Source: Bacteroidota bacterium (GTDB lineage Bacteria; Bacteroidota; Bacteroidia; Flavobacteriales_F; PHOS-HE28). From it: DNA of 64,000 bases. Below, one piece after another: positions 30,501 to 43,504 of the stretch. Location of the stretch: contig JAKQEI010000104.1 in NCBI GenBank assembly GCA_029573495.1, forward strand, positions 62,001-126,000. The letters are read 5' to 3'. Within the stretch, counting starts at the first letter, position 1. Every line of letters starts with the position of its first letter. The position numbers were made by a program, and so were the translations under genes. The notes below the pieces were generated by a model. The model did no database searches. It saw only the letters and a list, made by a program, of their open reading frames with translations, and was not told the DNA's origin.

Positions 30501-33500
30501 GCCCGTGTGAAACGGACGGCGGCTCGGATCAGGTGAGCATCTTCCTCTACTTCGACGAGAACCCCCTGGCCTTCGCCGGTCCTGATCAGGAACTATGCAC
30601 CATCAACGTGACCACCACGACGATGGCGGGCAGCGCGGTGACCTTCCCAGCCGTCGGCACCTGGACGCTCGTGAGCGGCACCGGTACCATCGCGAACCCG
30701 AACGACCCGAACACGGTCATCTTCGATCTCGGCATCGGGGAGAACATCTTCGCCTGGACCGTGGACAACGGGCCCTGCTCCAGTGGCATCACCACCGATC
30801 AGGTGAGCATACAGGTGTTCGACGAGAACAACCTCAACGCCAATGCTGGTCCCGATCAGGATCTGTGCACGCCTGCCACGAGCACCAGTTTGACAGGAAG
30901 TGCCCTCGTATTCCCGGCCACAGGCCTGTGGACCGTGGTGAGCGGCACAGGCACCATCACCGATCCCACCAACCCCAATACGACCATCACGGGACTGGGC
31001 GTGGGGACCATCGTGGTGGCCTGGACCGTGGACAACGGGCCTTGTTCGAGCGGGATCACCAGTGATCAGATGATCATCCGCTTATTCGATGAGAACAATC
31101 CCGTGGCCGATGCCGGACCCGATCAGGAGCTCTGCTCGAGCGATCCGCAGACCACCATGCAGGGAAGTGCGATCATCGCTCCGGCCAGCGGAACCTGGCA
31201 ACTGGTAAGCGGCACGGGTACCATCGTGGATCCCAGTTCGCCGACCACCCAGGTGACCGATCTCGCGATCGGGGAGAACATCTTCCTATGGACCGTGTCG
31301 AACGGACCTTGCGCGAACTCACTGACCGAGGACCTGGTGACCATCTACGTGTTCGACGAGAACAACCCTGATGCGGGCGCCGGACCGGACCAGCAGGTAT
31401 GTACACCCGTGACAGAGGCCATCATGGCGGGTACTCCATACACCTTCCCGGCCACCGGCACCTGGACCCTCGTGAGCGGTCAGGGCACCATCGGTGATCC
31501 AGACAACCCCAACGGTGTGATCACCGACCTCGGCATTGGCGTGAACACCTTCCGCTGGGAGGTGTACAATGGCGGTTGCACGAACCAGCTGACGAGTGAT
31601 GAGGTGGACATCGTCCTCTTCGATGCCTCTGCACCTCCTGCCGATGCCGGACCCGATCAGGAGTTCTGCGCGCCGGACGATGCGGCGACCATCACCGCCA
31701 ACCCACCGGTGGGTGCGGCGATCGGTACCTGGGCGCTCGTCCAAGGGACCGGTGTCATCGCGGACCCCTCCTCGCCGAGCACCACGGTCAGCGGCCTCAC
31801 CGTGGGCGAGAACATCTTCACCTGGACCCTGCAGGGCGGCATTTGTGTCACCACGGTGGATTCGGTGAGCCTCTTCGTCTTCGATCCGAACAACCCGATC
31901 GCGAACGCGGGTCTCGATCAGGAGCTCTGCATGCCGGAGGATTCGGTGATGATGGCGGGCAGCAACCTCATCTTCCCGGCCACCGGCACCTGGACGACCT
32001 TGATCGGCAGCGGTGTACCGCAGGCACCGAACGATCCGGGTACGATCATCACCGGGATCAGCCTTGGCCTCAACCGTTTCCAATGGGAGGTCTACAACGG
32101 TCCCTGTGCGAACAGTCTCACCGTGGACGTGGTGGATGTGACCCTCTACGATGACACCACTGCGGCCGCGAATGCCGGACCCGACCTGCAGCAGTGCCTG
32201 CCGATCACGGAGATCAACCTGCAAGGGGAGACCCCTCCCGCCCCTGCGGAAGGCACCTGGACACTGATCGCTGGTACCGGGGTGATCGCGGAGCCGAACA
32301 ACCCGACCACCTTGATCACCGGTCTCTCACAGGGGATCAACACCTTCGTATGGACCCTTGAATGGGATCCCTGCCCGAACAACGGCGTGCTCTCGGATAC
32401 GGTAAGCGTGTACGTGTATGATCCTGCGGCACCGCTGGCATCCGCAGGACCCGACCAACAGCTGTGTACCCCGACAAGTACATCGGTGCTCACGGGTAAC
32501 ACGCCGGCCATACCTGGCGTGGGCACCTGGACGGTGATCGGCGGAACCGCCGTGATCACGGATCCCAATGATCCCGTGAGTCCGGTATCCAACCTCGAGG
32601 TCGGTGAGCACACCCTGGTGTACGAGATCTACAACGGTATCTGTGGCTTCGGACCGCCGAGCACCGATACCCTGGTGATCCGGGTATATGACGGTGAGGC
32701 ACCCCCCGCGGCCGTGGGCGAGAGCATCAATGCCTGCACACCGGTGGATGACATCACGCTGCAGGGCAACACACCGGTCTTCCCAGCGATCGGCACCTGG
32801 ACCGGTGCGAGCGGTACGATCAATGCCCCGAATGATCCAGCTTCCACCGTGTCCGGCCTTGGTGTGGGTCAGCATGACTTCACCTGGACCATCGACAACG
32901 GCGCATGTGGAACGACCAGCGCGGTGCAGAGCGTCTTCATCTTCGATGATCAGGCGCCCGCGTCCGACGCCGGACCCGATCAGGAGTTGTGCCTGCCGAA
33001 CACCAGCGCCACACTCGCCGCCAACGCCGTGATCTTCCCGGCATCGGGCTTCTGGACCGTGATCGCCGGTGGCGGTGCGGTCACCGATCCGCTCTCTCCG
33101 ACCTCCGAGGTCACCGGCTTGACCCTTGGGACCAATACCCTGCGTTGGACGATCTCGAACGGCCCGTGCGGCACCACGCAGGACGAGGTGACCATCACCG
33201 TGTTCGATGACCAGCAACCCGTCGCCAACGCCGGACCTGATCAGCAGCTCTGCACGCCTGAGAGCAGTACGACCCTTGCCGGTAGTGCGGTCACCTTCCC
33301 CGCGACCGGTACCTGGGTGTTCGTGACCGGCTCCGCGACCCTGAGCGATGCCAACTCACCCACGGCCACCATATCCGGTCTCGCGGTCGGCGTATACGCG
33401 CTGCAATGGGTGGTGGACAACGGTCCTTGCGCAAGCGGTACGACCACCGATGAAGTGACCATCACGGTCTACGATGCTTCCAGTGCGCCGGCAGCGGCAG

Positions 33501-34288
33501 GTCCCGACCAGGACCTCTGTACTCCGATCACGGATCCGGTGACGATGCTCGCCAGTGCACCTTCGGCACCGGCGACCGGTCAGTGGACCCTGGTGAGCGG
33601 TGCGGCTACCATCACGGAGCCGGGTAGTCCCTTCACCACCATCTCGGACCTGGGTCTAGGGGAGAACGTCTTCGAATGGACGGTGGACAACGGTCCTTGC
33701 GGTACCACCACGGACCGGATCACCATCCGCGTCTTCGACAGCACCGTGCCAGCAGCGGATGCCGGCAATGATCAGGAGCTGTGCCAGCATGAGACCACGA
33801 CGGCCACCTTGGACGCGACGCCGGCCACCAGCACGGCCGTTGGTTCCTGGACCCTGCTTGCCGGAAGTGGGAACATCACCTCCCCGGGTGATCCGAACAC
33901 CACAGTCACCGGGCTCGCCCTGGGATCGAACGTGTTCGTTTGGACATTGAACAACGGCGCCTGTGGCAGCACCTCGGATACGGTGCGCATCGTGCTGAAG
34001 GATTGCCTGACGCTCACCATCCCGAACGCTTATTCGCCGAACGATGATGGGGTGAACGACATCTACACGATCGAGAACATCCAGTATTACCCGCAGAACA
34101 CCTTCATCGTGTTCAACCGATGGGGCAACAAGGTCTTCGAAGCCACGCCGTACACGAATACCTGGGACGGAACGAGCCAGTTCGGCTCGGCCTTCGGTGA
34201 GCTCCTCCCCGAAAGCACATACTACTACGTGCTCGACCCTGGAACAGGCGATGAGGCGTTCACCGGTTACATCTACCTGCGCCGCTAA
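24545..34288 (+). CDS. giant SprB-like surface protein with 31 tandem domains and gliding-type C-terminal sorting domain
   Basis: A 3247-residue protein. Residues 1-40 form a signal peptide (LIPFVAGTLLW, then AKA). Residues 40-415 hold a cysteine-rich module also found in the 15377 gene product, followed by an Ig-like domain. Residues about 416-3150 are 31 tandem domains of about 88 residues, consensus AGPDQxLCTP, then GTWTxVSGxGTI, VTGLxVGxNIFxWTVxNGPC and a linker FDxxNPxA. Every domain keeps two cysteines. The last 90 residues (AYSPNDDGVNDIY, FNRWGNKVF, GYIYLRR) are the gliding motility-associated C-terminal domain that directs T9SS type B export. By analogy with SprB it is probably a mobile or fixed surface adhesin paired with the downstream SprF-like protein. 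Adhesive role and gliding are inferred. Confidence 0.9.
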   Translation: MAEQRRLFNTAALAAAVRSSLLRYLIPFVAGTLLWQTEAKATHAMGGDITYECLGNNRYRINMSFFRDCNGVSAPTSCNNGDLSFNVRSTTCSANFNACFVRQSIDIVTPICDGAVDRCTNPSGTYGVERHRYSAIIDLSAWAGCGTDWIIDWDLCCRNNAITSLNNPGNRDLYLSARLDNTVTPCNSSPRFINDPVPFGCVGQPIVYNHGVTDLAGDSLSFELAPARGSGGSTIPYSNGYTFQQPVITNGGANAVTIDPVTGTIRFTPSIAQFAVVTVLVREYRNGVQIGQYLRDLQFAIIACNNNNPTVSGINGTNSFVYNVCAGTNFCFDVNSADVDAAQNVIMTWNGAIPTATFTTTNVPRPVGTFCWTPTIADIGQQIFTVSVEDDACVLNGSSTVGYLINITPPLTPAVAGPDQSVCGFTATLAGQQPYTQAQGTWTVVSGAGTFANANNPTTTVSGLSTGDNVFRWTVNYQTCGTTSDDVVIRAYDPGHPAASAGPAQDLCLPTNSTTLAANVAVAPAVGTWTLVSGAGTITTPNSPTSTVTGLGQGTNVFRWTIDNGACTPPTSSQVTIRVFSNVQPAANAGPDQQLCSPTLSTTLAGNAPIAPASGQWTVVSGTGTFANASVRNTTVSGLSIGVNRLRWTINNGPCTPPTTSDDVDIVVFNPASPNANAGPAQQVCAANATLAGNAPLAPATGLWTVVSGTGTFANASSPTTAVSGLAVGPNVFQWTLNNGPCANGITTSQVTITRFDGTAPGAAAGPDQSLCTAAGSSFASTTLAATAALAPATGTWTVVSGTATITNPNSPTSTVTGIPVGVTTLRWTISNGPCPPNSPTDDVVIRVFDRNAPAANAGPAQNLCAPVTSVTLAANAATAPAAGTWTVVSGTGTFANVNSPTTTVTGLAFGANVYRWTINNGPCPGAITSSDVTITLFNPAIAAANAGPDQETCGVSTATLAGSAVAAPATGTWTVVSGAATFANAASPTTSITGLPIGTTVLRWTVNNGPCGNTSDEVTIRRFDPNNPVANAGPDQSICVPVAPNIVTMAGSNVIAPAVGTWTLVSGGGTITNPNSPTTQITGLPIGISEFRWTVSNGPCPNGITQDIVQIRVFDSGTPDADAGPDQSLCTINGTTTMAGSAVASPSTGLWTLVSGTGTIVDPNSPTTQVTGLQVGQNIFQWTVDNGPCVNGITTDQMSIFVYDPSNPVAAAGPNQNICTSVGNSITLEGSPVIFPATGVWTVVGSPATIVDPNSPTTQVTGLATGNYSFVWTVNNGVCPNPISSSTSIVVVADGTAQAALAGPDQSVCGTSSSVTMAANTPTGVATGSWSVVSGSANFSNVNSASTTVTGLSIGLNNLRWSIDNGACGITSDVVTIFVYDPNNPVANAGPDQQLCTPTTSTTFAGSSLTIPAVGQWTLVSGAGVIANPSSPTSAVSGLAVGENVFRWQVNNGACPNPITQDLVSIFVYDNGAAVANAGPDQEICTPASSVTLVGNPPVGSAIGTWTRISGIGTITDPNDPNTTVTALGVGLNIFEWSIANGSCGTTTDQVSIFVFDATNPNANAGPDQEICTPASTVTLAGSNVIFPASGTWTLVSGSGTITTPNSQTSTVTGLTVGENIFEWTVLNGPCANGVTSDQVSIFVFDETNPVAAAGPDQQLCSPTSTSTLTGSSVIFPASGSWSLTQGTGTIADPNAPTTSVSGLSVGINIFTWTVENGPCANGTTTDEVRILVYDENNPDADAGPDQEICTPNSTVTLSGSAVTTPAIGTWTIISGSAVIADPNDPNTTISGLGVGEVVLEWTVDNGPCANGTTTDQVSIFIFDESNPDANAGADQDLCTPNTITSLEGSSVTFPAVGTWTLVSGQGSITDPNDPNTTVTDLGVGENIFEWTVYNGPCANGTTNDQVSIFLFDLNNPVPDAGPDQSLCTPTTSTTLQGSGVTFPAFGTWTVIQGTGDFANPNDPNTTVTGLSIGENIFQWTIDNGPCETDGGSDQVSIFLYFDENPLAFAGPDQELCTINVTTTTMAGSAVTFPAVGTWTLVSGTGTIANPNDPNTVIFDLGIGENIFAWTVDNGPCSSGITTDQVSIQVFDENNLNANAGPDQDLCTPATSTSLTGSALVFPATGLWTVVSGTGTITDPTNPNTTITGLGVGTIVVAWTVDNGPCSSGITSDQMIIRLFDENNPVADAGPDQELCSSDPQTTMQGSAIIAPASGTWQLVSGTGTIVDPSSPTTQVTDLAIGENIFLWTVSNGPCANSLTEDLVTIYVFDENNPDAGAGPDQQVCTPVTEAIMAGTPYTFPATGTWTLVSGQGTIGDPDNPNGVITDLGIGVNTFRWEVYNGGCTNQLTSDEVDIVLFDASAPPADAGPDQEFCAPDDAATITANPPVGAAIGTWALVQGTGVIADPSSPSTTVSGLTVGENIFTWTLQGGICVTTVDSVSLFVFDPNNPIANAGLDQELCMPEDSVMMAGSNLIFPATGTWTTLIGSGVPQAPNDPGTIITGISLGLNRFQWEVYNGPCANSLTVDVVDVTLYDDTTAAANAGPDLQQCLPITEINLQGETPPAPAEGTWTLIAGTGVIAEPNNPTTLITGLSQGINTFVWTLEWDPCPNNGVLSDTVSVYVYDPAAPLASAGPDQQLCTPTSTSVLTGNTPAIPGVGTWTVIGGTAVITDPNDPVSPVSNLEVGEHTLVYEIYNGICGFGPPSTDTLVIRVYDGEAPPAAVGESINACTPVDDITLQGNTPVFPAIGTWTGASGTINAPNDPASTVSGLGVGQHDFTWTIDNGACGTTSAVQSVFIFDDQAPASDAGPDQELCLPNTSATLAANAVIFPASGFWTVIAGGGAVTDPLSPTSEVTGLTLGTNTLRWTISNGPCGTTQDEVTITVFDDQQPVANAGPDQQLCTPESSTTLAGSAVTFPATGTWVFVTGSATLSDANSPTATISGLAVGVYALQWVVDNGPCASGTTTDEVTITVYDASSAPAAAGPDQDLCTPITDPVTMLASAPSAPATGQWTLVSGAATITEPGSPFTTISDLGLGENVFEWTVDNGPCGTTTDRITIRVFDSTVPAADAGNDQELCQHETTTATLDATPATSTAVGSWTLLAGSGNITSPGDPNTTVTGLALGSNVFVWTLNNGACGSTSDTVRIVLKDCLTLTIPNAYSPNDDGVNDIYTIENIQYYPQNTFIVFNRWGNKVFEATPYTNTWDGTSQFGSAFGELLPESTYYYVLDPGTGDEAFTGYIYLRR
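25790..34000 (+). repeat. 31 tandem repeats of about 265 bp in the giant surface gene
   Basis: The coding array contains 31 in-frame units of 85-94 codons, each beginning near AGPDQ or a variant (AGPAQ, AGPNQ, AGADQ, AGNDQ, AGLDQ) and ending in a short acidic or Asn/Pro linker. Units 1-7 mostly carry FANA or FANV plus SPTT, units 8-22 mainly carry DPN with SPTT or DPNTT. Unit 27 (from about 32690) is the most divergent, reading VGESINACTP in place of AGPDQ, and is short. DNA identity varies, so the array is old in part but has stretches, such as units 13-19, that look recently exchanged. Confidence 0.9.
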
Positions 34289-35262
34289 TGAACATGCGCT
34301 CAACAGCCACGCGCAACATGCACGAACAGATGAACAGCATCGCGAAACGGATCAAGGGCACGGCGCTGACGTTGCTGCTCACCACGGGCCTCTTCGCCCA
34401 GCAGGATCCGCAGTTCACCCAGTACATGTTCAACCTGCTTGCGATCAACCCGGCCTACGCCGGCAGCGCGGACAGGGTGAGCTTGAAAGCCCTCAGTCGC
34501 CACCAATGGGTGGGATTCGAAGGGGCACCCACCACCCAGACGCTCACGGTGCACTCACCGCTGGGACGCGAGAGCATCGCGCTCGGTGGGACCGTGATGC
34601 GTGACAGCCACGGGCCCATCACCCAGTACACCTTCATGGCGGACTTCGCCTATCGGATCTTCATGGGTGATGCGAAGCTCGCCTTCGGCCTGAAGGGCGG
34701 GCTCAACCTCTTCCAGGGACAGTTCGCCGACCTCAGTCCGCTGGTCCAGGGCGACCAGGTGTTCCAACAGAACGTGAGCACGAAGATGGACCCACAATTC
34801 GGCTTCGGGGTGATGTACTACAGCGATCGCTATTTCCTCGGCCTGAGCACACCGAAACTGCTGCGCACGGAGTTCTTCGAGACCGATTCGCTCGCCTTCG
34901 TCTCCTCCCCCGGTCAGCGTCCGCACTACTTCCTCACGGGTGGTTATGTGTTCGACATGGGGCTCTATCACAAGTTCAAGCCCACCTTCCTGGTGAAGGC
35001 CGTGCAGGGTGCACCGATCAGCTTCGACCTCAGTGCCAACTTCCTGTTCTACGAGAAGTTCTGGCTGGGGGCCATGTACCGCCACACCGATGCGGTGGGC
35101 GCCCTGGCCCAATACTACATCACCGATGACCTATCCGTGGGTTATGCCTACGACTACCCGTTGAGCACCCTGCGCAACTACAGTGGAGGTTCGCACGAGG
35201 TGATGCTGGGCCTCGACCTCGGTAAGAAGCCGAAAGGCATCCGTTCACCACGCTACTTCTGA
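34288..35262 (+). CDS. PorP/SprF family outer-membrane protein
   Basis: A 324-residue protein with the family start QQDPQFTQYMFNLLAINPAYAGS just after a signal peptide (TALTLLLTTGLFAQ), then a region of beta strands (ALGGTVMRDSHGPITQY, AYRIFMGDAKLAFGLKGG, FGFGVMYYSDRYFLGLSTP). SprF-type proteins sit in the outer membrane and are needed to display partner SprB-type adhesins carrying type B sorting domains; each giant protein often has its own SprF. The start overlaps the last base of the giant gene stop (TAATG), so translation is coupled. Met at 34330 (MNSIAKR) is an alternative start closer to the signal peptide. Confidence 0.92.
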   Translation: MNMRSTATRNMHEQMNSIAKRIKGTALTLLLTTGLFAQQDPQFTQYMFNLLAINPAYAGSADRVSLKALSRHQWVGFEGAPTTQTLTVHSPLGRESIALGGTVMRDSHGPITQYTFMADFAYRIFMGDAKLAFGLKGGLNLFQGQFADLSPLVQGDQVFQQNVSTKMDPQFGFGVMYYSDRYFLGLSTPKLLRTEFFETDSLAFVSSPGQRPHYFLTGGYVFDMGLYHKFKPTFLVKAVQGAPISFDLSANFLFYEKFWLGAMYRHTDAVGALAQYYITDDLSVGYAYDYPLSTLRNYSGGSHEVMLGLDLGKKPKGIRSPRYF

Positions 35263-37463
35263 TGATGACCAACACCATGCGACCGCACCGTGCACACTTC
35301 GGGGTGTTGCTCCGATCCTTGATCGTCATGCTCCTCCTGCCGGTCTCCCTTCAGGCCCAGAAGCTGAAGGAACGCCTGGCCGACAGGGCCGCCGAGCAGT
35401 TCGACTATCCGCACATGGCGGCCATTTACGAGGACCTGATCGTGAGTGGCAAGGCAGATCCTTCCGACATGCGCCGACTCGCGCTCGCCTATCGGAAGAT
35501 GGGGCAACCGCAGAAGGCCGAAGCCACCTACCTCAAGTTGATGGGCACCGGCGCCCAGACACCGGATGATGTCTTCGCTTATGCCGAGCAGTTGCGCGCC
35601 AATGGCAAGTACCCGGAAGCCTTGGAATGGTACGGTGCCTATGCGGCCCTGCGTCCGGAGGACATGCGTGCACAGGCCTACGTGAAGAACCCGCGCATCT
35701 TCGAACGACTGTTGCGCGATTCCGCGAGCGCCGTCATCCGCACCCTGCCGATCAACTCGCCGGAGGCGGATCTGGCACCCAGCATCATGGAGGAGTTGCT
35801 GCTCTTCGCCAGCGCACGTGGAGAAGGTGTGGGTGGCAACAGGCTCTACCTCTGGGATGAGCAACCCTACCTCAACCTTTACACGGCCCTTTGGAAAGGA
35901 GAGACAGCGGAGGACCCGTTGGTCATGCGGCGGGAAGTGAACAGCCGGTACCACGATGGGGTCGGGTCCTTCGATTCCGTGGCCAGTCGGCTGTACTTCA
36001 CGAGGAACAATTACTACTACGGCACGCTGGACAAGAACACCAAGGGAGAGCTCAACCTCGGGATCTTCTACAGCAGTGTCGTCACCGGTGAGTTCGGACA
36101 GCCCGAATGGGGTAACCTGGTTCCTTTCGAACACAATGATGCGGACGTGAACCTGGGTCATCCGTCGGTGAGCCCCGATGGCAAGAAGCTCTTCTTCGCC
36201 AGTGATCGGGCGGGAGGACAGGGCGGTACCGATATCTGGTATTGTGAGAACCTCGGCAACCAGTGGGGATCACCGATCAACATGGGGCCGGAGGTGAACA
36301 CTTCCGGGAACGAGCTCTTCCCGTACCTGCACCGCGATAGCACGCTCTACTTCGTGAGTACCGGCCATCCTGGGCTTGGAGGCTACGACATCTTCTACTC
36401 CCGACTCTCGAAAGCCGGCCCTGGCAAGGTGTTCAACCTCGGATATCCCATGAACACCCGGTTCAATGATCACGGGCTCATCTTCTTCAACGATACCACC
36501 GGTTTCTTCGCGAGTGATCGTCCAGGAGGCAAGGGAAGTGATGACATCTACGGGTGTACGATCCGACCGCCGACCGTTTACCTCGCCGGTATCGTGATCG
36601 ACAAGGAGACCCGACAGCCGATCGAAGGGGCCACCATCCAGATGAAGGATGAGAACGGCAAGTTCATCGACCGGTTCAAGGTGGAGAGCGAACCGGGTGG
36701 GAAGTTCAAGATAGAGGTCCCGTACCACGACAAATACGTTCTCATTGCCAATCGCACCGGCTATTTCCAGAAGGAACACCCGCTCAGCACCAATGAGGAT
36801 GCCCTGGAGGAGATCGTAGTGGAGATGCAGAAGTACGACTATGCGGCAGAGGGCATCGTGTATCATGGTGAGACCGGACAGCCCTTGGAAGGGTCGACCG
36901 TCGTGCTCGTGGATGGCGCGGACAACGAACTTGAACGTCTCACCACCGATGCCTCCGGCAAGTATGCGTTCGCCCTCAAGCCGGAGTCCGACTATCGGAT
37001 TAAGGTGGAGAAGGAAGGCTTCTTCAAGCAGAGCGCCAGGATCAGTACGAAGGGCAAGCCGAACGGCGTGATCAAGACGGACTTCAAGCTCTTCCCGCTC
37101 GTCGTGGACCAGGTCGTCCGCCTGGAGAACATCTTCTACGATTACAACAAGTGGAACATCCGTCCGGATGCCGCCATCGAACTCGACAAGCTCGTGGCCA
37201 CGCTGCTGGACAACCCCACGGTGAAGATCGAACTGAGCTCCCATACGGATTGCCGAGGCAAGGACGCATACAACCTGAAGCTCTCGGACAAACGGGCCAA
37301 GAGCGCTGTGGACTACATCATCAGCAAGGGCGTGCCCAAGGAGAACATCACCAGCAAGGGCTATGGCGAGAGCCTGCCCAGCGAGTCCTGTGCCTGCGAG
37401 CAGTGCTCGGAGGACCAGCACCAGCGGAACCGCCGCACGGAGTTCAAGGTGCTTTCGAAGTAG
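35262..37463 (+). CDS. OmpA family protein with TPR and PD40 repeats (PorE-like)
   Basis: A 733-residue envelope protein. Domains in order: signal peptide (LLRSLIVMLLLPVSLQAQ), TPR-like helices (residues about 40-135), a WD40-like PD40 region with HPSVSPDGKKLFFASDRAGG and GFFASDRPGGKGSDDIYG, two carboxypeptidase-regulatory-like domains (about 440-610) and an OmpA domain (about 625-733, ELSSHTDCRGKDAYNLKLSD) that binds peptidoglycan. Such proteins (PorE/SprE neighbours) anchor the T9SS or its SprF partners to the cell wall. The C-terminal end has an unusual cysteine cluster ESCACEQCSED within the OmpA domain, also seen in related proteins. It starts one base into the SprF stop (TGATG), making a coupled three-gene operon. 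Confidence 0.9.
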   Translation: MMTNTMRPHRAHFGVLLRSLIVMLLLPVSLQAQKLKERLADRAAEQFDYPHMAAIYEDLIVSGKADPSDMRRLALAYRKMGQPQKAEATYLKLMGTGAQTPDDVFAYAEQLRANGKYPEALEWYGAYAALRPEDMRAQAYVKNPRIFERLLRDSASAVIRTLPINSPEADLAPSIMEELLLFASARGEGVGGNRLYLWDEQPYLNLYTALWKGETAEDPLVMRREVNSRYHDGVGSFDSVASRLYFTRNNYYYGTLDKNTKGELNLGIFYSSVVTGEFGQPEWGNLVPFEHNDADVNLGHPSVSPDGKKLFFASDRAGGQGGTDIWYCENLGNQWGSPINMGPEVNTSGNELFPYLHRDSTLYFVSTGHPGLGGYDIFYSRLSKAGPGKVFNLGYPMNTRFNDHGLIFFNDTTGFFASDRPGGKGSDDIYGCTIRPPTVYLAGIVIDKETRQPIEGATIQMKDENGKFIDRFKVESEPGGKFKIEVPYHDKYVLIANRTGYFQKEHPLSTNEDALEEIVVEMQKYDYAAEGIVYHGETGQPLEGSTVVLVDGADNELERLTTDASGKYAFALKPESDYRIKVEKEGFFKQSARISTKGKPNGVIKTDFKLFPLVVDQVVRLENIFYDYNKWNIRPDAAIELDKLVATLLDNPTVKIELSSHTDCRGKDAYNLKLSDKRAKSAVDYIISKGVPKENITSKGYGESLPSESCACEQCSEDQHQRNRRTEFKVLSK

Positions 37464-37548: not shown

Positions 37549-38655
37549 CTACCTCATCCGCGCCTGCGCGCGAGGCGCGTAGAAGCTCTTCGACCGCGCG
37601 ATCCGTTCGAATGCCGATCGGGCAAGGTCCTTCTTCCCGGATCGGTCCATCGCGAGCGCATGATACCAGTCGGCCTCTTCGTCGAACACTTGGAAGCGAT
37701 GGTGGGCCGCGCGATCCAGGAAGCCCTCCGCTCGTTCCGTGAGGCCGAGGTTGTAGCTGCACAGGCCGGCATAGAACAAGGCGTTCACGTCATCCGGGTA
37801 CTGCGTCAGCAGGAAGCCCAGTTCCTCCAGGCAGCCCTTGTGGTCGTTGCGCACGAACTTGTCCAGCGCCTCGTCCATGAAGGTGAGGTAGGCCACACGC
37901 CGTTCCTCCTGGCGCGCTGCCTGCTGCTCCAAGGCGCTGGTGTACCGCGCATCCACCCCGGTGGTGAGCTGCTCGATCCCCGGGCTGCGACCGTACATCT
38001 CCTTCGGATGCAACAGTTTCAGATCGTGCAGGTACACGAGTTGCAAGGATGGCTTGTGCCGGCTCTCCAGCGAGCGATCGACCGATGTGGCCGTGGTCGG
38101 TGCCGTCGTGGTGATCGGCTCCAATGGCTCGATGGTCGTGCGGTCCACGGTGCTTGTGGAAGCGGGGGTCCTCAGTTCGGCATGGGCGAGGCTGTGCCTT
38201 TCGGTGGTCGCATGGCCGATCCGCAGGCTCTCGGGGAGCTCCACCCCTGAGCTGATCTCGGCTGGCCGGATCGCGACCACTACCTCCTCCACATCGCTTT
38301 CCGGCTGCGCGGAGTGCTCCAGGTGTGGTTGAACAACCGGACCGGGATCCGGGTTCCCGCGGCCCAATTGATAACCGACGATACCGGCGACAACCACCAC
38401 GCCAGCGATGAAGGTGCGCGTCATCCAGGCGTTCCCGCCACGTACGGGAGCCTGGGCATGCAGTGCTTCCAAGCCACCGATCCCACCCGGCTGCATCAAT
38501 CCCTCCACGGCATCCTGAAGGAGCGGATCCGCTTCGAGATGAAGCTCCACCTCGTGCGCTTCGGCCGGATCCAGGCGACCCTCGGCATAAGCCATGAGCT
38601 TCTCCCGGGAGAGGCTGCCTTGTGGCGTGAACAGGTCGTTTCTCCCGTTGGTCAT
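37549..38655 (-). CDS. membrane-anchored TPR protein, probable anti-sigma factor
   Basis: A 368-residue protein starting MTNGRNDLFTPQGSLSREKLM. Residues about 20-60 (LMAYAEGRLDPAEAHEVELHLEADPLL) look like the N-terminal anti-sigma domain of bacterial anti-sigma factors, without the Zn-binding cysteine motif. One membrane helix follows (TFIAGVVVVAGIVGYQLG), then a proline/threonine-rich periplasmic linker and C-terminal TPR repeats (LDKFVRNDHKGCLEELGFLL, NALFYAGLCSYNLGL, AEGFLDRAAHH). Overlap of the start with the sigma gene stop (ATGA) fits a sigma/anti-sigma pair. Periplasmic TPRs suggest sensing through protein contacts. Function inferred from context. Confidence 0.65.
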   Translation of the reverse strand: MTNGRNDLFTPQGSLSREKLMAYAEGRLDPAEAHEVELHLEADPLLQDAVEGLMQPGGIGGLEALHAQAPVRGGNAWMTRTFIAGVVVVAGIVGYQLGRGNPDPGPVVQPHLEHSAQPESDVEEVVVAIRPAEISSGVELPESLRIGHATTERHSLAHAELRTPASTSTVDRTTIEPLEPITTTAPTTATSVDRSLESRHKPSLQLVYLHDLKLLHPKEMYGRSPGIEQLTTGVDARYTSALEQQAARQEERRVAYLTFMDEALDKFVRNDHKGCLEELGFLLTQYPDDVNALFYAGLCSYNLGLTERAEGFLDRAAHHRFQVFDEEADWYHALAMDRSGKKDLARSAFERIARSKSFYAPRAQARMR

Positions 38656-39206
38656 GACGCGTCGCGTTGAAGGATGAGGCGCAGGTTCCGACGGCCGTTC
38701 TGGAGGTGGCTGCGGACTTGTTCGATGGGGGATCCGCAGATGGCTGCGACCTGCGCGTAGCTGTGGCCTTCCAGGTGGAAGAGGCGGATGCACCGTTGTT
38801 GTTCTTCGTTCAAGGAAGCGATCGCATGTTCCAAACGCTGCAGGGTGGCCTCGTGCAGCGCCTTTTCCTCGAGGTCGGCTGCATCCGCGCCCGGGTCATC
38901 GACGAAGGCCGTGGTCGGGCGTTCGCGGCGAAGCAGCTGCAGACAGCGGTTCCGCATCACCGTGTGGATCCATGGCCTGAAGCGTTCCACCTCGTGCTTC
39001 ATCATCAGTTCCTTCAATCCTGCGAAGAGCTCCACCACCTCATCCTTGCTGCGTTCCGGATCACGCAGGTATTTCATGCCCACGCCATAGAGCAGTTCGG
39101 AGTAGCGGTCCCAAAGGTCCCCTAATGCGGACCGGTGCCCCTCCCGCAGGAGACGCACCAGGTCCTCATCGGTCCGGGTCACTATGGCTCGCCGACGCAG
39201 GAACAT
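38652..39206 (-). CDS. ECF-type RNA polymerase sigma factor
   Basis: A 184-residue sigma-70 family protein. Region 2 is visible as ALGDLWDRYSELLYGVG, KYLRDPERSKDEVVELFAGL and WIHTVMRNRCLQLLRRE; region 4 as LNEEQQRCIRLFHLEGHSYAQVA and IEQVRSHLQNGRRNLR. Lacking regions 1 and 3, it is an extracytoplasmic function sigma factor. The ATG at 39204-39206 is one base after the stop of the plug protein gene; a GTG at 39182 is a second choice. It sits between the plug protein and the membrane TPR protein, so a three-gene regulatory operon is likely. Confidence 0.88.
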   Translation of the reverse strand: MFLRRRAIVTRTDEDLVRLLREGHRSALGDLWDRYSELLYGVGMKYLRDPERSKDEVVELFAGLKELMMKHEVERFRPWIHTVMRNRCLQLLRRERPTTAFVDDPGADAADLEEKALHEATLQRLEHAIASLNEEQQRCIRLFHLEGHSYAQVAAICGSPIEQVRSHLQNGRRNLRLILQRDAS

Positions 39207-39207
39207 C

Positions 39208-39948
39208 TCATGGCAAGGTATCCTCCACCGCGCTTCGCAGGGCCTTGCGCCGCTCTGCTTCGTACATCTCACCGTAGGTCTTGGTCTCCACCACGATCAC
39301 GCCGCCGGTCACATCACCATAGCGCGCAGGCAGCCCACCGGTGTAGACGCTCACACTGCTGATCGCACTGGGTGGAACGCGTGGCACCCCACCGCTGATC
39401 TTCACCGCATCGATGAAGCTCACCGTGTTCTCGGTACGCGCTCCCCGGAAGTACAGCCCATCACCGTTCGGGGCCGCCGTGACCCCTGCGAAATTCTTGC
39501 TGAGGAACTGGATGGGATCCTTGCGGGTGGGATCATCCTCGAACTCGGAGGCCAGGAGGCTCATGCGGCTGGGGTCGTCGATATCGATGAGCTTGCGCTT
39601 GTAAGCGATGATCTCGACCTCACCGATGGCATCGATGTAGGCCATCCGTTGATCTCCGAGGTAGGTCGCCCGATCGGGTACGACGTTCACCCCGGTGGTT
39701 TCCTTGGTCTTGAAGCCGGTGAAGGAGATGGTAACGGCGTTCCTGCCCGGTGGAAGCGGCTTCAGAACGAATCTCCCATCCAGGTCCGTGGTCGTGCCGA
39801 CCATTTCACCAGCGACGGTCGTGTACACGTTGGCCATGAACAGCGGTTGGCCCTCCGGGTCGAGCACGCGACCCCGGATCTCGCCGAGGTTCTGCCCGAG
39901 GCTCGCACTGGCGAACAGGGCCGCGATGAAGAAGGATGTATTGCGCAT
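39208..39948 (-). CDS. TonB plug-domain protein without a beta barrel
   Basis: A 246-residue secreted protein. After a signal peptide (SFFIAALFASASLGQ) comes a carboxypeptidase-regulatory-like domain (residues about 25-105, IRGRVLDPEGQPLFMANVY and TTDLDGRFVLKPLPPG) and a TonB receptor plug (about 130-230, KNFAGVTAAPNGDGLYFRG, SAISSVSVYTGGLPARYGD, GGVIVVETKT). Full-length receptors have a further 500-600 residues of barrel; here a clean stop follows and no barrel sequence appears in any frame downstream, since the sigma gene begins at once. It may be a stand-alone regulator or accessory plug rather than a broken gene. Start chosen for the signal peptide. Confidence 0.7.
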   Translation of the reverse strand: MRNTSFFIAALFASASLGQNLGEIRGRVLDPEGQPLFMANVYTTVAGEMVGTTTDLDGRFVLKPLPPGRNAVTISFTGFKTKETTGVNVVPDRATYLGDQRMAYIDAIGEVEIIAYKRKLIDIDDPSRMSLLASEFEDDPTRKDPIQFLSKNFAGVTAAPNGDGLYFRGARTENTVSFIDAVKISGGVPRVPPSAISSVSVYTGGLPARYGDVTGGVIVVETKTYGEMYEAERRKALRSAVEDTLP

Positions 39949-40049
39949 CGTTGATCGTTTCCTGGTAGATGCGATGATCGACCGGAATACATAAGAACGT
40001 GGCATCCTCTTCCCTGGATGCAAGGCCAGGAGATCGGTCCGGAACGGCA

Positions 40050-40664
40050 CTACAACTCCTCCGCCACCACCTCGCGCACTCCGGGCACCTCGTGCTTCAG
40101 CAGGTTCTCGATCCCCTGCTTCAAGGTGACCATGCTGCTGGGGCAGCCGCTGCATGACCCGCGCAACGAAACGGTGACGATGCCCTCATCGAAGCTCTTG
40201 AACGCGATGTGGCCGCCATCGCCCTCCACCGCCGGACGGATGTATTCCTCCAGCACACGGATGATCTTCTCGTCATCCGGACCCTTCGCTTCCGCATGCG
40301 TGCTCGCCCGTTCGTTCGCATCAGCGAGGGCTTGCGCAGGTGCATCCTCGTACACCGTGCGTCCATCCGTGCGCAGGTACTCCAATATGTAGTCCCTCAG
40401 CTCCATGCTCACCAGGTCCCAATCCACGCTGTTGTTGCGCGTGACGGTGATGAAGTTGCTGCTGATGAAGACCCCTGTGACGAAGGGCAGGTTGAAGATC
40501 CGTTCGGCAAGCGGGGAAACGCCGACCGGTTCCTCGGGCGTACGGAACTCCAGCAACCGGCCATCCTGAACCAGCATCCGGTCGCACACGTACCGCATGG
40601 TTAGTGGATTGGGCGTTGATTCCACGTAAAGGCTGATGGGACGGGTCATCGGTTCGTTCGCCAT
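40050..40664 (-). CDS. NfuA/NifU-like iron-sulfur cluster carrier
   Basis: A 204-residue protein. The N-terminal domain (LYVESTPNPLTMRYVCDRML, LAERIFNLPFVTGVFIS) is the Nfu N domain, and the C-terminal NifU-like domain (VLEEYIRPAVEGDGGHI) has the cluster-binding motif CSGCPSSM, a CxxC. Such proteins take Fe-S clusters from the assembly scaffold to target apoproteins. Start at ATG 40662-40664 agrees with a TACCTTTG promoter element 21 bases upstream; the longer upstream frame lacks support. Divergent from the copper-handling operon. Confidence 0.9.
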   Translation of the reverse strand: MANEPMTRPISLYVESTPNPLTMRYVCDRMLVQDGRLLEFRTPEEPVGVSPLAERIFNLPFVTGVFISSNFITVTRNNSVDWDLVSMELRDYILEYLRTDGRTVYEDAPAQALADANERASTHAEAKGPDDEKIIRVLEEYIRPAVEGDGGHIAFKSFDEGIVTVSLRGSCSGCPSSMVTLKQGIENLLKHEVPGVREVVAEEL

Positions 40665-40685
40665 GTCGATGTGCGCTGTGCGGCG

Positions 40686-40693
40686 CAAAGGTA
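40686..40693 (-). promoter_or_regulatory. promoter -7 element of the nfuA-like gene
   Basis: The minus strand reads TACCTTTG, an exact match to TAnnTTTG, 21 bases before the start codon. Confidence 0.5.
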
Positions 40694-40762
40694 CCGCCGC
40701 TGGGAGCCTTGGCCTCCCAAGCTTTCCGGAGACCGGTCGCATGCTGACGGCAGGGAGCATCC

Positions 40763-40770
40763 TACTTTTG
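40763..40770 (+). promoter_or_regulatory. promoter -7 element of the copper-handling operon
   Basis: TACTTTTG exactly matches TAnnTTTG and ends only 6 bases before the ATG at 40777, so the mRNA should begin at or next to the start codon. No TTG is seen at the usual -33 distance. Confidence 0.5.
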
Positions 40771-40776
40771 TGCAAC

Positions 40777-41181
40777 ATGCGCTCCTTGCTCACGCGACAC
40801 AAGTGGATCACCTACCTCGTGGTGGGCCTGTTCCTTGTGGCCACGAACGGCATGACCATCAGCCGCATGACCTGCCTCAAGGGTGGGCATAGTGTGGTCA
40901 GTTTGGGTGTGATGGTGGGCTGCTGCCCGGAGGAGGGGGACGGGAGCGATGCCCCGGCATACCGCGCGATCTGCTGCGAACTGGCCTTGGTGAAGGGTGA
41001 GCGGGATAGCTACATCCCCAACATCGGTACCGATGATCATATCGCCACCATTGATCTTTGGCATTGCGTGGCTGATGTATCGCTGCTGGCGCCGGTTCAC
41101 AATGTCACATGGCTGGCTTCCCGACCTCCTCCGCTATCAGCGCCGGACCGGCTTACGGTGATCAGCGTCCAACGCGTCTAG
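40777..41181 (+). CDS. small cysteine-rich HYC_CC_PP-like protein, probable metal handling
   Basis: A 134-residue protein with an N-terminal hydrophobic segment (ITYLVVGLFLVATNG), followed by TCLKGGHSVVSL, a GCCPEE pair, ICCEL and a late SRPPPLS motif. The spaced Cys, Cys-Cys and Pro-Pro features resemble the Bacteroidota HYC_CC_PP family, although the HYC triplet itself is not seen. Such proteins are often found beside TonB receptors and HMA domain proteins, as here, and are suspected copper proteins. The -7 element TACTTTTG ends just 6 bases before the ATG, which points to a nearly leaderless mRNA. Weak family match; metal role inferred. Confidence 0.55.
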   Translation: MRSLLTRHKWITYLVVGLFLVATNGMTISRMTCLKGGHSVVSLGVMVGCCPEEGDGSDAPAYRAICCELALVKGERDSYIPNIGTDDHIATIDLWHCVADVSLLAPVHNVTWLASRPPPLSAPDRLTVISVQRV

Positions 41182-41257
41182 TTCCTTCCTGTTCCCGCCC
41201 ACGTGGCGAAGGGGTCTTGTGACCCGGTGTCCATCACACGAACAGGAAACGAACAAG

Positions 41258-43504
41258 ATGTCATTCACTTCAAGAGGCCTTCTTCTCCTGGTGCGCCTGA
41301 CCTGTATGTCGGCCGTGACCGCACAGGGGATCACTGGGAAGGTGAGCTCAGCGGAAGGGGACGTCCTGACAGGCGCCAACCTGCATTGGCTCGGCACCAC
41401 TATCGGCACGGCCACTGATGCGACCGGAAGCTTCGTACTGATGCAGCCCGGAAGCTGGCCAGCCACGCTCATCACTTCATTCGTGGGCTACAAGGCCGAT
41501 ACCCTGCACCTCAATGCAATGCCCACGACTTCTCTCCGCATCAAGTTGACCTGGGCGGTGGAGATGGGGCCCGTGGAGATCGTCGATCGTGTGGCCGGAA
41601 CGCGCCTGGATACGCGCAGCATCAACGCTACGGAGATCATCGGTCAGAAAGAGCTGAAACGTGCGGCCTGTTGCGATCTGAGCGAGAGCTTCGAGACGAA
41701 CGCGACCGTGGATGTCAACTACAGCGATGCGATCAGCGGTACGAGGACGATCCGCATGCTGGGCCTCGATGGCAAGTACGCGCAGATCAGCTTGGAGAAC
41801 CTGCCCTTCATCCGTGGCCTTTCCACCTCTTATGGGCTCACGCTCGTCCCAGGTACATGGATCAAGGATATCAACCTGAGCAAGGGGATCGGTACCGCAG
41901 TGAACGGCCCGAACGCGATGACCGGGCAGATCGATCTCTGCCTGCTCGATCCGTTGCGCGAACCGATGCTCTTCGTGAATCTCTACGGCAATTCACAGGG
42001 CCGGACGGAGGCGAACGTCCATCTCGCGCAGAAGACCGGCCAGGACAGTGGCAACCTGTTGCTCCTGCACGGGAACCTCTTCCAGCAGGATATGGATCAG
42101 AACCACGATGGCTTCATGGATTCCCCACGCACCCGTCGGTTCAACGTGATGGACCGTTGGATGCGCCGAACGGACCGGGGCATGACCCAGCTGGGCGTAC
42201 GCTACGTGACCGAGGAGCGGAAGGGTGGCCAGACCGCGATGAGCATGCATGATCCCGAACATGTGATCCACGCTGGTGAACCCTATGTGGTGGACATCCG
42301 GAACGAGATGGTCGATGTCTTCGGCAAGCAGGGCATCATCTTCAAGAACGACCCCAGCAAGAGCCTCGGCTTCATGTTCGCCGCCCGGCATCATGAGGCC
42401 GCTTCCCGTTTCGGCAGGCGCAGCTATGCCGGTAGGCAGGACAGCTTCTACGGAAGTGCGGTCTACCAGATGTTGGTGGGCAAGGGCAGCGACCAGCTGA
42501 AGGCGGGAGCGACCTTCCAGTTCGATCGCTTCGAGGAGGCCTTCATGGACAGTGGTTTCGCGAGGATCGAACGCATGCCGGGCCTTTTCGCCGAGTATAC
42601 ACTGTCACGCGGTCCGCTCACCATGGTCGGTGGCCTCAGGGCGGATGCGAATTCCTTTTACGGCGATGTGGTGAGCCCGCGCCTGCACCTGAAATATGAC
42701 CTTGGACCGCTCACCAACCTGCGGCTTTCCGCCGGGCGCGGCTTCCGCAGTACGAACCCCTTCGTGGAGAACGCATCGGTGCTGGCCAGCTCGAGGCGGG
42801 TCGTTGTGGAGGGTTCGTTGGGCATGGAGCGTTCATGGAACTTCGGTGCATCGGCATTGCACAAATTCAAATGGCTCGATCGGAAGTGGGCCATCGGTGT
42901 CGATGTATGTCGCACCGAGTTCCACGACCAGCTCATTGCGGATCTGGATCGCAGTCCCCGTACCGTGGCCTTCTACATGCTTGAGGGAAGCTCTTACGCC
43001 ACCAACGTCCTCACCGATGTGCAGGTCGAGCTGAGCCGGGACATGGACCTCAAGCTCGCGCACCGCTGGTACGACGTGCGCTCCACCTACGATGGGGTCC
43101 TGCGGGAACGACCGTTCACTCCGCAACACCGGGGCATGGCCTCCCTGGCCTTCACGGACCCCAAGGAGCGATGGCGGATGGACATCACCTGGAACTTCTT
43201 TGGTGAAGGGCGGATCCCGTATACCCTCGCCAACCCTGAAGCCCATCGAATGCCGTTGCGCTCCCCGTCTTATTCCACCCTGTCCGGCCAGCTTACCCGT
43301 ATCCTGGGCGATTGGGAGCTTTACCTCGGGGCGGAGAACGCGACCAGCACCCTCCAACGCCAGCAGATCATCGCTCCAGAGGATCCCTTCGGCCCGTATT
43401 TTGACGCCTCCTTGATCTGGGGTCCCACCAACAAGGCGATGGTCTATGGAGGGCTTCGTTTCCAACTCGACCGCAAAGCCGATAAGACACCGAACACACC
43501 ATGA
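41258..43504 (+). CDS. TonB-dependent receptor of the copper-associated type
   Basis: A 748-residue outer-membrane receptor. Signal peptide (LLLLVRLTCMSAVTAQ), then a carboxypeptidase-regulatory-like domain (residues about 22-100, ITGKVSSAEGDVLTGAN and SFVGYKADTLHL), plug (KELKRAACCDLSESFETNATV, RMLGLDGKY, PGTWIKDINLSKGIGTAVNGP) and barrel to the end. The Ala-Cys-Cys-Asp-Leu-Ser-Glu-Ser-Phe-Glu segment at the start of the plug is typical of receptors that sit next to HMA and HYC_CC_PP genes, so metal (copper) transport is likely. Start ATG 41258 chosen for the signal peptide. Its stop overlaps the next start by 4 bases (ATGA). Confidence 0.85.
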   Translation: MSFTSRGLLLLVRLTCMSAVTAQGITGKVSSAEGDVLTGANLHWLGTTIGTATDATGSFVLMQPGSWPATLITSFVGYKADTLHLNAMPTTSLRIKLTWAVEMGPVEIVDRVAGTRLDTRSINATEIIGQKELKRAACCDLSESFETNATVDVNYSDAISGTRTIRMLGLDGKYAQISLENLPFIRGLSTSYGLTLVPGTWIKDINLSKGIGTAVNGPNAMTGQIDLCLLDPLREPMLFVNLYGNSQGRTEANVHLAQKTGQDSGNLLLLHGNLFQQDMDQNHDGFMDSPRTRRFNVMDRWMRRTDRGMTQLGVRYVTEERKGGQTAMSMHDPEHVIHAGEPYVVDIRNEMVDVFGKQGIIFKNDPSKSLGFMFAARHHEAASRFGRRSYAGRQDSFYGSAVYQMLVGKGSDQLKAGATFQFDRFEEAFMDSGFARIERMPGLFAEYTLSRGPLTMVGGLRADANSFYGDVVSPRLHLKYDLGPLTNLRLSAGRGFRSTNPFVENASVLASSRRVVVEGSLGMERSWNFGASALHKFKWLDRKWAIGVDVCRTEFHDQLIADLDRSPRTVAFYMLEGSSYATNVLTDVQVELSRDMDLKLAHRWYDVRSTYDGVLRERPFTPQHRGMASLAFTDPKERWRMDITWNFFGEGRIPYTLANPEAHRMPLRSPSYSTLSGQLTRILGDWELYLGAENATSTLQRQQIIAPEDPFGPYFDASLIWGPTNKAMVYGGLRFQLDRKADKTPNTP

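Follow-up and report, generated by a model that had tools for sequence, protein, structure and literature searches.

Why is a receptor-like protein that has a TonB plug and no barrel encoded together with a sigma factor and a membrane protein that may control it? This question is raised by a three-gene operon within a 64,000-nucleotide stretch of a Bacteroidota bacterium (positions 62,001 to 126,000, forward strand, of contig JAKQEI010000104.1 in the 306-contig assembly GCA_029573495.1), referred to here as the window. The operon encodes a barrel-less TonB-receptor-like protein (the plug protein), an extracytoplasmic function (ECF) sigma factor and a membrane anti-sigma factor with a tetratricopeptide repeat (TPR) domain. 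The three are well supported as a conserved module by comparison of sequences, and it is suspected, at a little short of an even chance, that the module acts as a self-amplifying envelope circuit.

Gene layout and protein domains

The features of the operon, listed in the direction of transcription, are as follows.

39967..39993, minus strand: ECF-type promoter motif TATGTATTCC-N11-GCATCT, 5' of the plug gene, with one mismatch to the genus pattern
39208..39948, minus strand: barrel-less TonB-receptor-like gene (plug gene), 246 aa, with putative signal peptide, N-terminal extension (NTE), TonB-box-like linker, plug and short tail
39658..39879, minus strand: NTE, a carboxypeptidase-regulatory-like domain, aa 24-97 (Pfam PF13620, 60.7 bits; fold matches include the SusC NTEs 9hfj and 6ytc)
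39574..39633, minus strand: linker with a TonB-box-like strand, aa 106-125 (GEVEIIAY at 109-116), between NTE and plug, of low model confidence
39298..39510, minus strand: TonB plug domain, aa 147-217 (PF07715, 26.1 bits)
38652..39206, minus strand: ECF sigma factor, 184 aa (Sigma70_r2, r4_2; TIGR02937, 88.5 bits)
37549..38655, minus strand: membrane anti-sigma factor with C-terminal TPR domain, 368 aa (zf-HC2, alignment and model)
38533..38607, minus strand: anti-sigma domain resembling the ASD/ZAS (anti-sigma domain/zinc-binding anti-sigma) type, aa 17-41 (zf-HC2), with the zinc-motif cysteines lost in the window protein
38365..38415, minus strand: single hydrophobic, putative transmembrane segment, about aa 81-97, by reading of the sequence
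37555..37935, minus strand: C-terminal TPR helices, aa 241-367 (predicted local distance difference test (pLDDT) of blocks 60-93, 10 of 13 blocks at 80 or above; invariant residues)

A single base (39207) lies between the plug-gene stop and the sigma-gene ATG, and the sigma and anti-sigma genes share 4 bases, both as described in a first-pass annotation made from the letters of the window. That annotation had also described a plug without a barrel, in agreement with Pfam, where the 246-aa protein matched CarboxypepD_reg and Plug (cut-off 23.9 bits) and no barrel family. Its "regulatory-like domain" is present as the carboxypeptidase-regulatory-like NTE but is not an STN signalling domain, for which there was no Pfam match at E values up to 1. 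The plug protein is probably exported, given an N-terminal hydrophobic signal judged by eye. Nine of the 12 residues invariant among 63 homologues sit in the plug domain. The linker is variable, with a TonB-box-like strand in several homologues (e.g., LPTITVVANRWE in locus L006), and this strand may act as a TonB box.

The sigma protein scored above the Pfam cut-offs for both Sigma70_r2 and r4 and above that of the NCBIfam sigma70-ECF model TIGR02937 (42.9 bits), which identifies it as an ECF sigma factor. The N-terminus of the third protein matched zf-HC2 in Pfam (24.7 bits, cut-off 22.2), which identifies a class I anti-sigma domain; a FecR match was absent at E values up to 1. This supports the proposal that the TPR protein is an anti-sigma factor. 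The C-H-C-C zinc ligands are retained in many homologues of families outside the genus, and the cysteines of this motif are lost in most aligned genus anti-sigmas. Its cytoplasmic domain is predicted to bind and inhibit the cognate sigma. Matches to its C-terminal TPR part fall under the Pfam cut-offs, and five residues there (N291, F294, Y295, F324 and E327, window numbering) are invariant across 33 homologues. AlphaFold models of the plug protein and the anti-sigma were weak (mean pLDDT 62.4 and 58.1), having been built with only 7 sequences, and are usable for the NTE and the TPR part alone; the latter is the best-modelled part of the anti-sigma, the middle region of which is disordered in the model. 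The plug-protein model gave teneurin and carboxypeptidase domains, which share its fold, as its first matches, followed by the NTEs of two SusC transporters, and matches also covered parts of FepA, PirA and PfeA.

Conservation of the three-gene module

The three-gene order, which the first-pass annotation had proposed to seek in other genomes, recurs throughout the genus: homologues of sigma and anti-sigma adjoin the plug gene at all 17 genus loci (the window's own and L011, with broken frames, included) and at all six loci from named relatives. The latter are metagenome-assembled genomes, five labelled Flavobacteriales and one uncultured Bacteroidetes, and three of their loci (L022, L024 and L026) are probably the same records as genus loci. 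Outside the genus, 40 loci were fetched and both partners were found near the plug gene in 33, as an operon in some families and divergently in others; among these, L107 has an intervening reading frame and the anti-sigma of L084 scores just 16.8 bits. The loci without both partners nearby are L095, L096, L101, L110, L114, L115 and L116, of which L110 runs off its contig and was excluded from the tree and the motif test described below. Dispersal of the three genes elsewhere, which had been named as a finding that would tell against the module, was therefore not what was observed.

When the frames of 49 loci were clustered, the three module families were present in 49, 42 and 42 loci, while the next neighbour cluster reached 11; a few recurring neighbours span more than one bacterial family. 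The genes are also absent together. In 11 genus genomes lacking the plug gene, neither a cognate sigma (best matches at most 49 bits) nor the anti-sigma was detected in any, and on a 20-genome tree of the genus, which took in 9 of these 11, the pattern of presence and absence implies no fewer than two separate changes. The plug gene of G052 is located at the beginning of a contig, and the cognate sigma was not found in this genome. Taken together, the results give good support to a conserved module of plug protein, sigma and anti-sigma.

Two irregular loci were observed within the genus. The module frames of L011 are broken (G001, a 66% complete genome), and the anti-sigma at G060:C1:2202628-2203700 is split over two frames; each could reflect decay or assembly error. 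It should also be noted that, by reading, related sigma/anti-sigma pairs without the promoter motif adjoin YfiR-like, TPR and sensor-like genes in L123, L126 and L135.

Distribution and origin of the plug protein

The barrel-less protein is present in 34 of 45 genus genomes and absent in 11, the 34 comprising 30 with loci together with G048, G052, G001 (a broken copy) and G059 (a contig-end piece). The 19 aligned genus proteins stop shortly after the plug; their tail, which opens with ETKSYFDLY or a similar sequence, is short in all but L008. When 395 genomes were sampled across the class, with up to 6 candidates scored in each, more short plug proteins appeared in many families among the matches listed. 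Homologues are thus likewise barrel-less, and the concern that full receptors elsewhere would expose the window protein as a truncated pseudogene was not borne out.

The nearest full-length relative is a TonB receptor of about 1250 aa, with best matches of 36-40% identity. In a tree of 82 sequences, 54 of 55 sampled barrel-less proteins formed one clade (support 87) inside this receptor family, the exception being L107, placed beside a full receptor. This was a quick tree with Shimodaira-Hasegawa-like approximate likelihood ratio (SH-aLRT) support only, one very distant outgroup and many weak deep forks; it is consistent with the barrel having been lost mainly once and with a near-single origin. 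Ratios of non-synonymous to synonymous substitution (dN/dS) against four relatives were 0.10-0.17 for the plug gene, 0.20-0.30 for sigma and 0.18-0.30 for the anti-sigma, these ratios being rough because several dS values exceed 1. They support purifying selection on the plug gene.

The receptor of about 1250 aa itself (L018-L020, L058, L137-L156) occurs in most genomes of the class sample. In family f4, a plug-only gene lies approximately 0.9 kb upstream of such a receptor gene and not beside a sigma gene, with its motif kept (L095 5967-11347, L096 6029-11278).

Promoter motif

A shared promoter motif, which the first-pass annotation had suggested looking for, was found at most plug genes. 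Within the genus it reads TRTGCRWTCC-N11-GCATC and lies mostly 45-61 bases 5' of the start; in strict form it matches 25 of 29 plug genes and misses the window's own promoter by one base. Other families carry TATGGAAT-N13-KCATC or TRTGGAAW-N14-CGTCT. A loose expression matched within 130 bases upstream of 57 of 66 plug genes (L093, L107 and L110 excluded), namely 27 of 29 in the genus, 12 of 16 in other operons, 14 of 15 in divergent loci and four of six unlinked plug genes, with shuffled means of 0.005 to 0.085 per set and no match in reversed sequences. The f41 loci have no good site by the genus matrix, yet the loose expression matches them.

Divergent sigma genes have their own copy in 13 of 15 cases, and no motif preceded any of the 45 sigma genes that come after a plug gene. 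The sigma of the module is predicted to recognise the motif, and if so the operon, and both genes in the divergent loci, would be under positive feedback. In addition, the -35-like part changes from TATGGAAT in other families to TRTGCRWT in genus g1, where most aligned anti-sigmas have lost the zinc ligands. A co-evolution of sigma and promoter in this genus is possible.

Predicted regulon

The exact genus pattern gave 55 matches in 31 module genomes (20 plug promoters and 35 others), against 2 in 11 module-less genomes and 1 for the reversed pattern in all 42. A pattern for family f20 matched 31 times in nine genomes, 14 times at a plug/sigma locus, against 4 reversed matches in the same nine; in three genomes of other families it gave no forward match and one reversed. 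A third pattern gave 53 matches in 21 genomes with a control of 5, and 1 match in six genomes without a sigma match. The 142 listed matches represent 131 distinct sites, of which 32 lead into plug genes, seven into sigma genes (among them L260, whose genome has an unlinked plug gene), 82 into other genes and 10 into none, the last including three sites from sigma-less genomes. At 54 of the 82 other-gene sites an ATG lies within 70 bases, and 50 of these 54 have a hydrophobic N-terminus, a count that is not an independent test because the choice of start favoured hydrophobic N-termini.

The 82 targets were clustered by blastp, with Pfam or NCBIfam applied to representatives only, and 29 fell outside any cluster. 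An unnamed family of 14 proteins (f1, f19, f20, f33 and f52) gave no Pfam or NCBIfam name past an NTE part in the two members scanned (L205 and L264). Twelve targets are DUF4139/MuiA proteins (f1, f4, f20 and f46; two scanned) and six belong to a family in which the one member scanned has a weak cyclase-like match. Five alpha-2-macroglobulin-like targets form two clusters, with MG2 in the two long frames scanned and the partial L256 unmatched. Four genus proteins form a further cluster in which both scanned members have TonB_C just above the Pfam cut-off; for L164 (313 aa), from the window's own genome, TonB_C scored 29.5 against a cut-off of 24.6 in Pfam and 18.5 against one of 27.1 in NCBIfam, so that Pfam confirms the domain and NCBIfam does not. 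There were also three TonB transducers, all scanned, in two f33 genomes; for two of these the starts lie at distances of 98 and 123 bases. From these, a small envelope regulon of MuiA/DUF4139, alpha-2-macroglobulin-like, NTE-domain and some TonB or TonB-like proteins is predicted. Ten members of the unnamed family were aligned (L181, L194, L205, L219, L232, L240, L243, L262, L264 and L265); some show an NTE-like N-terminal part and others a TonB-box-like strand.

Chance matches are likely among the exact genus-pattern sites, for example before a ruvA-like frame (L172, by reading). Five f20 matches before a TPR-like gene (L180, L185, L195, L198 and L204) overlap other long frames; they were not relied on as targets and are still counted among the 82. 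The motif was also scored before DUF4140 genes at 30 loci, four of them without a reading frame and some with misplaced starts. In module genomes, five of six paralogues of 627-683 aa scored 6.1-27.9 bits, the sixth, L294, being among the misplaced starts. Of ten module-less genomes scored, in nine the only frames were 544-610 aa long and scored below zero, and the comparison is only suggestive because the 640-aa frame of the tenth, G006, scores 8.0, within the weaker positive range.

Proposed circuit and its alternatives

The reading that comes nearest to an even chance is that of a self-amplifying envelope circuit of Bacteroidota in which the plug protein is a sensor or feedback part. The cytoplasmic anti-sigma domain would hold the ECF sigma and be joined by one membrane helix to the periplasmic TPR domain. 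An envelope signal would free the sigma, which would then transcribe the motif-bearing genes: its own operon, the plug gene and the small set of envelope genes. The plug protein would be an exported receptor mimic incapable of transport; its NTE would dock on the TPR domain, much as an STN signalling domain does on an anti-sigma of the FecR type, and set the stability of the anti-sigma as feedback, and its TonB box and plug would report the status of TonB or of receptors. A readout of the plug protein by the anti-sigma is put at slightly under even odds, and the NTE-TPR contact, the direction of its effect and the signal itself are what this arrangement would presuppose.

Some evidence from sequence co-variation and from other systems is consistent with such a contact. 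Over 39 loci, NTE and TPR distances co-vary weakly beyond sigma (partial r 0.21, a value reached in 9 of 500 permutations). The receptor FoxA of the Fox system is reported to bind and protect the anti-sigma FoxR through its signalling domain (PMC11637429). For docking by a barrel-less protein there is the precedent of VreA, where, in the part of the source at hand, it is proposed and not demonstrated (PMC2729926).

Several observations weigh against this circuit. The plug domain co-varies with the cytoplasmic anti-sigma domain as well (0.14, 16 of 500), a domain it cannot reach, so that a residual background in the co-variation is likely; plug and TPR co-vary at 0.01, and these values come from five pairs tested without correction. 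Deletion of vreA left the VreAIR regulon unchanged under phosphate starvation, as far as the accessible part of that study goes (PMC4971064). Plug genes of the f4, f19 and f3 loci are unlinked to a sigma gene, and the sigma family extends beyond the circuit, to 216 of 395 class genomes. Nine of the 66 plug genes have no loose motif within 130 bases, the window's own (with its one mismatch) included, and the motif counts are not independent, because the expression was written after the results of an earlier motif scan and partly on the same loci. TonB transducers appear as targets in just two genomes of one family. Lastly, the motif precedes four of 20 sampled sigma/anti-sigma pairs with no plug gene next to them (L117, L118, L119 and L127; f33 twice, f22 and f37), and therefore the circuit does not require an adjacent plug gene.

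These four pairs also bear on a second explanation, which is judged a serious though lesser possibility: the plug protein could be an output of the sigma, an induced envelope effector that, for instance, occupies TonB or protects empty barrels, with its adjacency a matter of convenient co-regulation. Such a role would suit the four of six unlinked plug genes that keep the motif, and the other predicted targets, which are mostly exported judging by their N-termini. It accounts less readily for the constancy of the neighbourhood, since no other gene family exceeds 11 of the 49 clustered loci, the plug gene is near sigma in 33 of 40 loci in two arrangements and beside it in every genus locus checked, and all three genes are jointly absent in 11 genomes. 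An exception to plug-only adjacency is the motif-less locus L136, where by reading a DUF4139-like gene is divergent to a related sigma gene.

A more specific role, considered unlikely, is that of a transport-dead decoy gauging free TonB capacity in the periplasm. Its exposed TonB box would be pulled when TonB is free of real receptors, the NTE would inform the TPR anti-sigma, and the sigma would then adjust the supply of TonB and envelope proteins. If true, the cell would possess a sensor dedicated to supply and demand in the TonB energy system.

As a sensor or feedback component, the plug protein would make a receptor part the third member of a sigma circuit that spans many families within a single class and has a promoter code and regulon predicted for it. 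The module is a testable entry point to envelope control in Bacteroidota, and if the link to TonB holds, it would show how TonB supply is matched to many TonB-dependent receptors.

Comparison with known systems

The combination of a receptor-like protein, an ECF sigma and a membrane anti-sigma recalls the FecIRA type of TonB cell-surface signalling (CSS), from which the first-pass annotation had set the locus apart. The operon could in principle be a variant of it, with the receptor cut short or its barrel partner elsewhere, and the full-length relative of about 1250 aa in most genomes searched would be in keeping with this. The variant is nevertheless highly improbable. In the parts of the published accounts at hand, CSS systems have a full barrel receptor, an STN domain and a FecR-type anti-sigma (PMC9249621, PMC11637429), and the module matches none of these, two defining domains being contradicted. 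The sigma reached 58.7 bits for the FecI-like model Sig70_bacteroi1 (TIGR02985) against a cut-off of 126.4, and the barrel-less proteins end soon after the plug, 54 of the 55 sampled falling in one clade. What is shared is a receptor-derived periplasmic part, an ECF sigma and a membrane anti-sigma.

Among described systems, VreA-VreI-VreR (PUMA3) of Pseudomonas aeruginosa comes closest; in the accounts as available, it likewise has a barrel-less receptor-like protein, with receptor, sigma and anti-sigma encoded in that order in a single operon. VreR belongs to the CSS-type sigma regulators of the FecR type, unlike the module anti-sigma with its ASD/ZAS and TPR domains. VreA combines an STN domain with a TolA/TonB-like domain and has no plug, whereas the module protein has an NTE and a plug; and vreAIR is not under its own sigma, whereas the module operon carries the sigma-type motif. 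VreA is mostly soluble, and exbB2D2 and tonB4 are among the sigma-dependent genes in the parts consulted (PMC2729926, PMC4971064); the TonB-related targets predicted here are transducers, confined to two genomes from a single family, and, within the genus, TonB_C-like proteins. With no match to STN or FecR, the module is not a member of the FecIRA or VreAIR systems and is at most like VreAIR.

SusC-type TonB-dependent transporters of Bacteroidota share the NTE and the plug with the module protein, which differs from them in lacking a barrel and in its tie to a sigma/anti-sigma pair. Pairs of ECF sigma and class I (ASD/ZAS) anti-sigma share the cytoplasmic anti-sigma domain and one hydrophobic segment, to which the module adds the periplasmic TPR domain and, as a third partner, the barrel-less receptor. 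The open-access literature searched, which mostly lacks subscription papers, yielded no account of a plug-only partner of a sigma factor, and the portion available of a study on sigma motifs of Flavobacterium psychrophilum contained no such circuit (PMC9723704). The findings point to an undescribed way of envelope monitoring, across a large set of environmental bacteria, by a barrel-less receptor with sigma and anti-sigma.

The remaining possibility, a truncated pseudogene or assembly error, to which the broken plug and sigma frames of G001 (L011, 66% complete) and the two-frame anti-sigma of G060 might lend some colour, was ruled out for the window by 19 open genus proteins and dozens elsewhere, the plug-gene dN/dS of 0.10-0.17 and the gene's own motif.

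Neighbouring genes in the window

On the plus strand, positions 40636-43504 contain a TonB receptor with an NTE and a barrel (746 aa from the start used), preceded by a 181-aa frame with no Pfam match. On the other side, positions 24545-37463 (plus strand) encode a PKD-repeat protein of 3247 aa that bears a type IX secretion signal (CHU_C), followed by PorP/SprF and OmpA-PD40-NTE-TPR proteins. These genes run consecutively, converging on the operon, and represent a type IX secretion cargo cluster.

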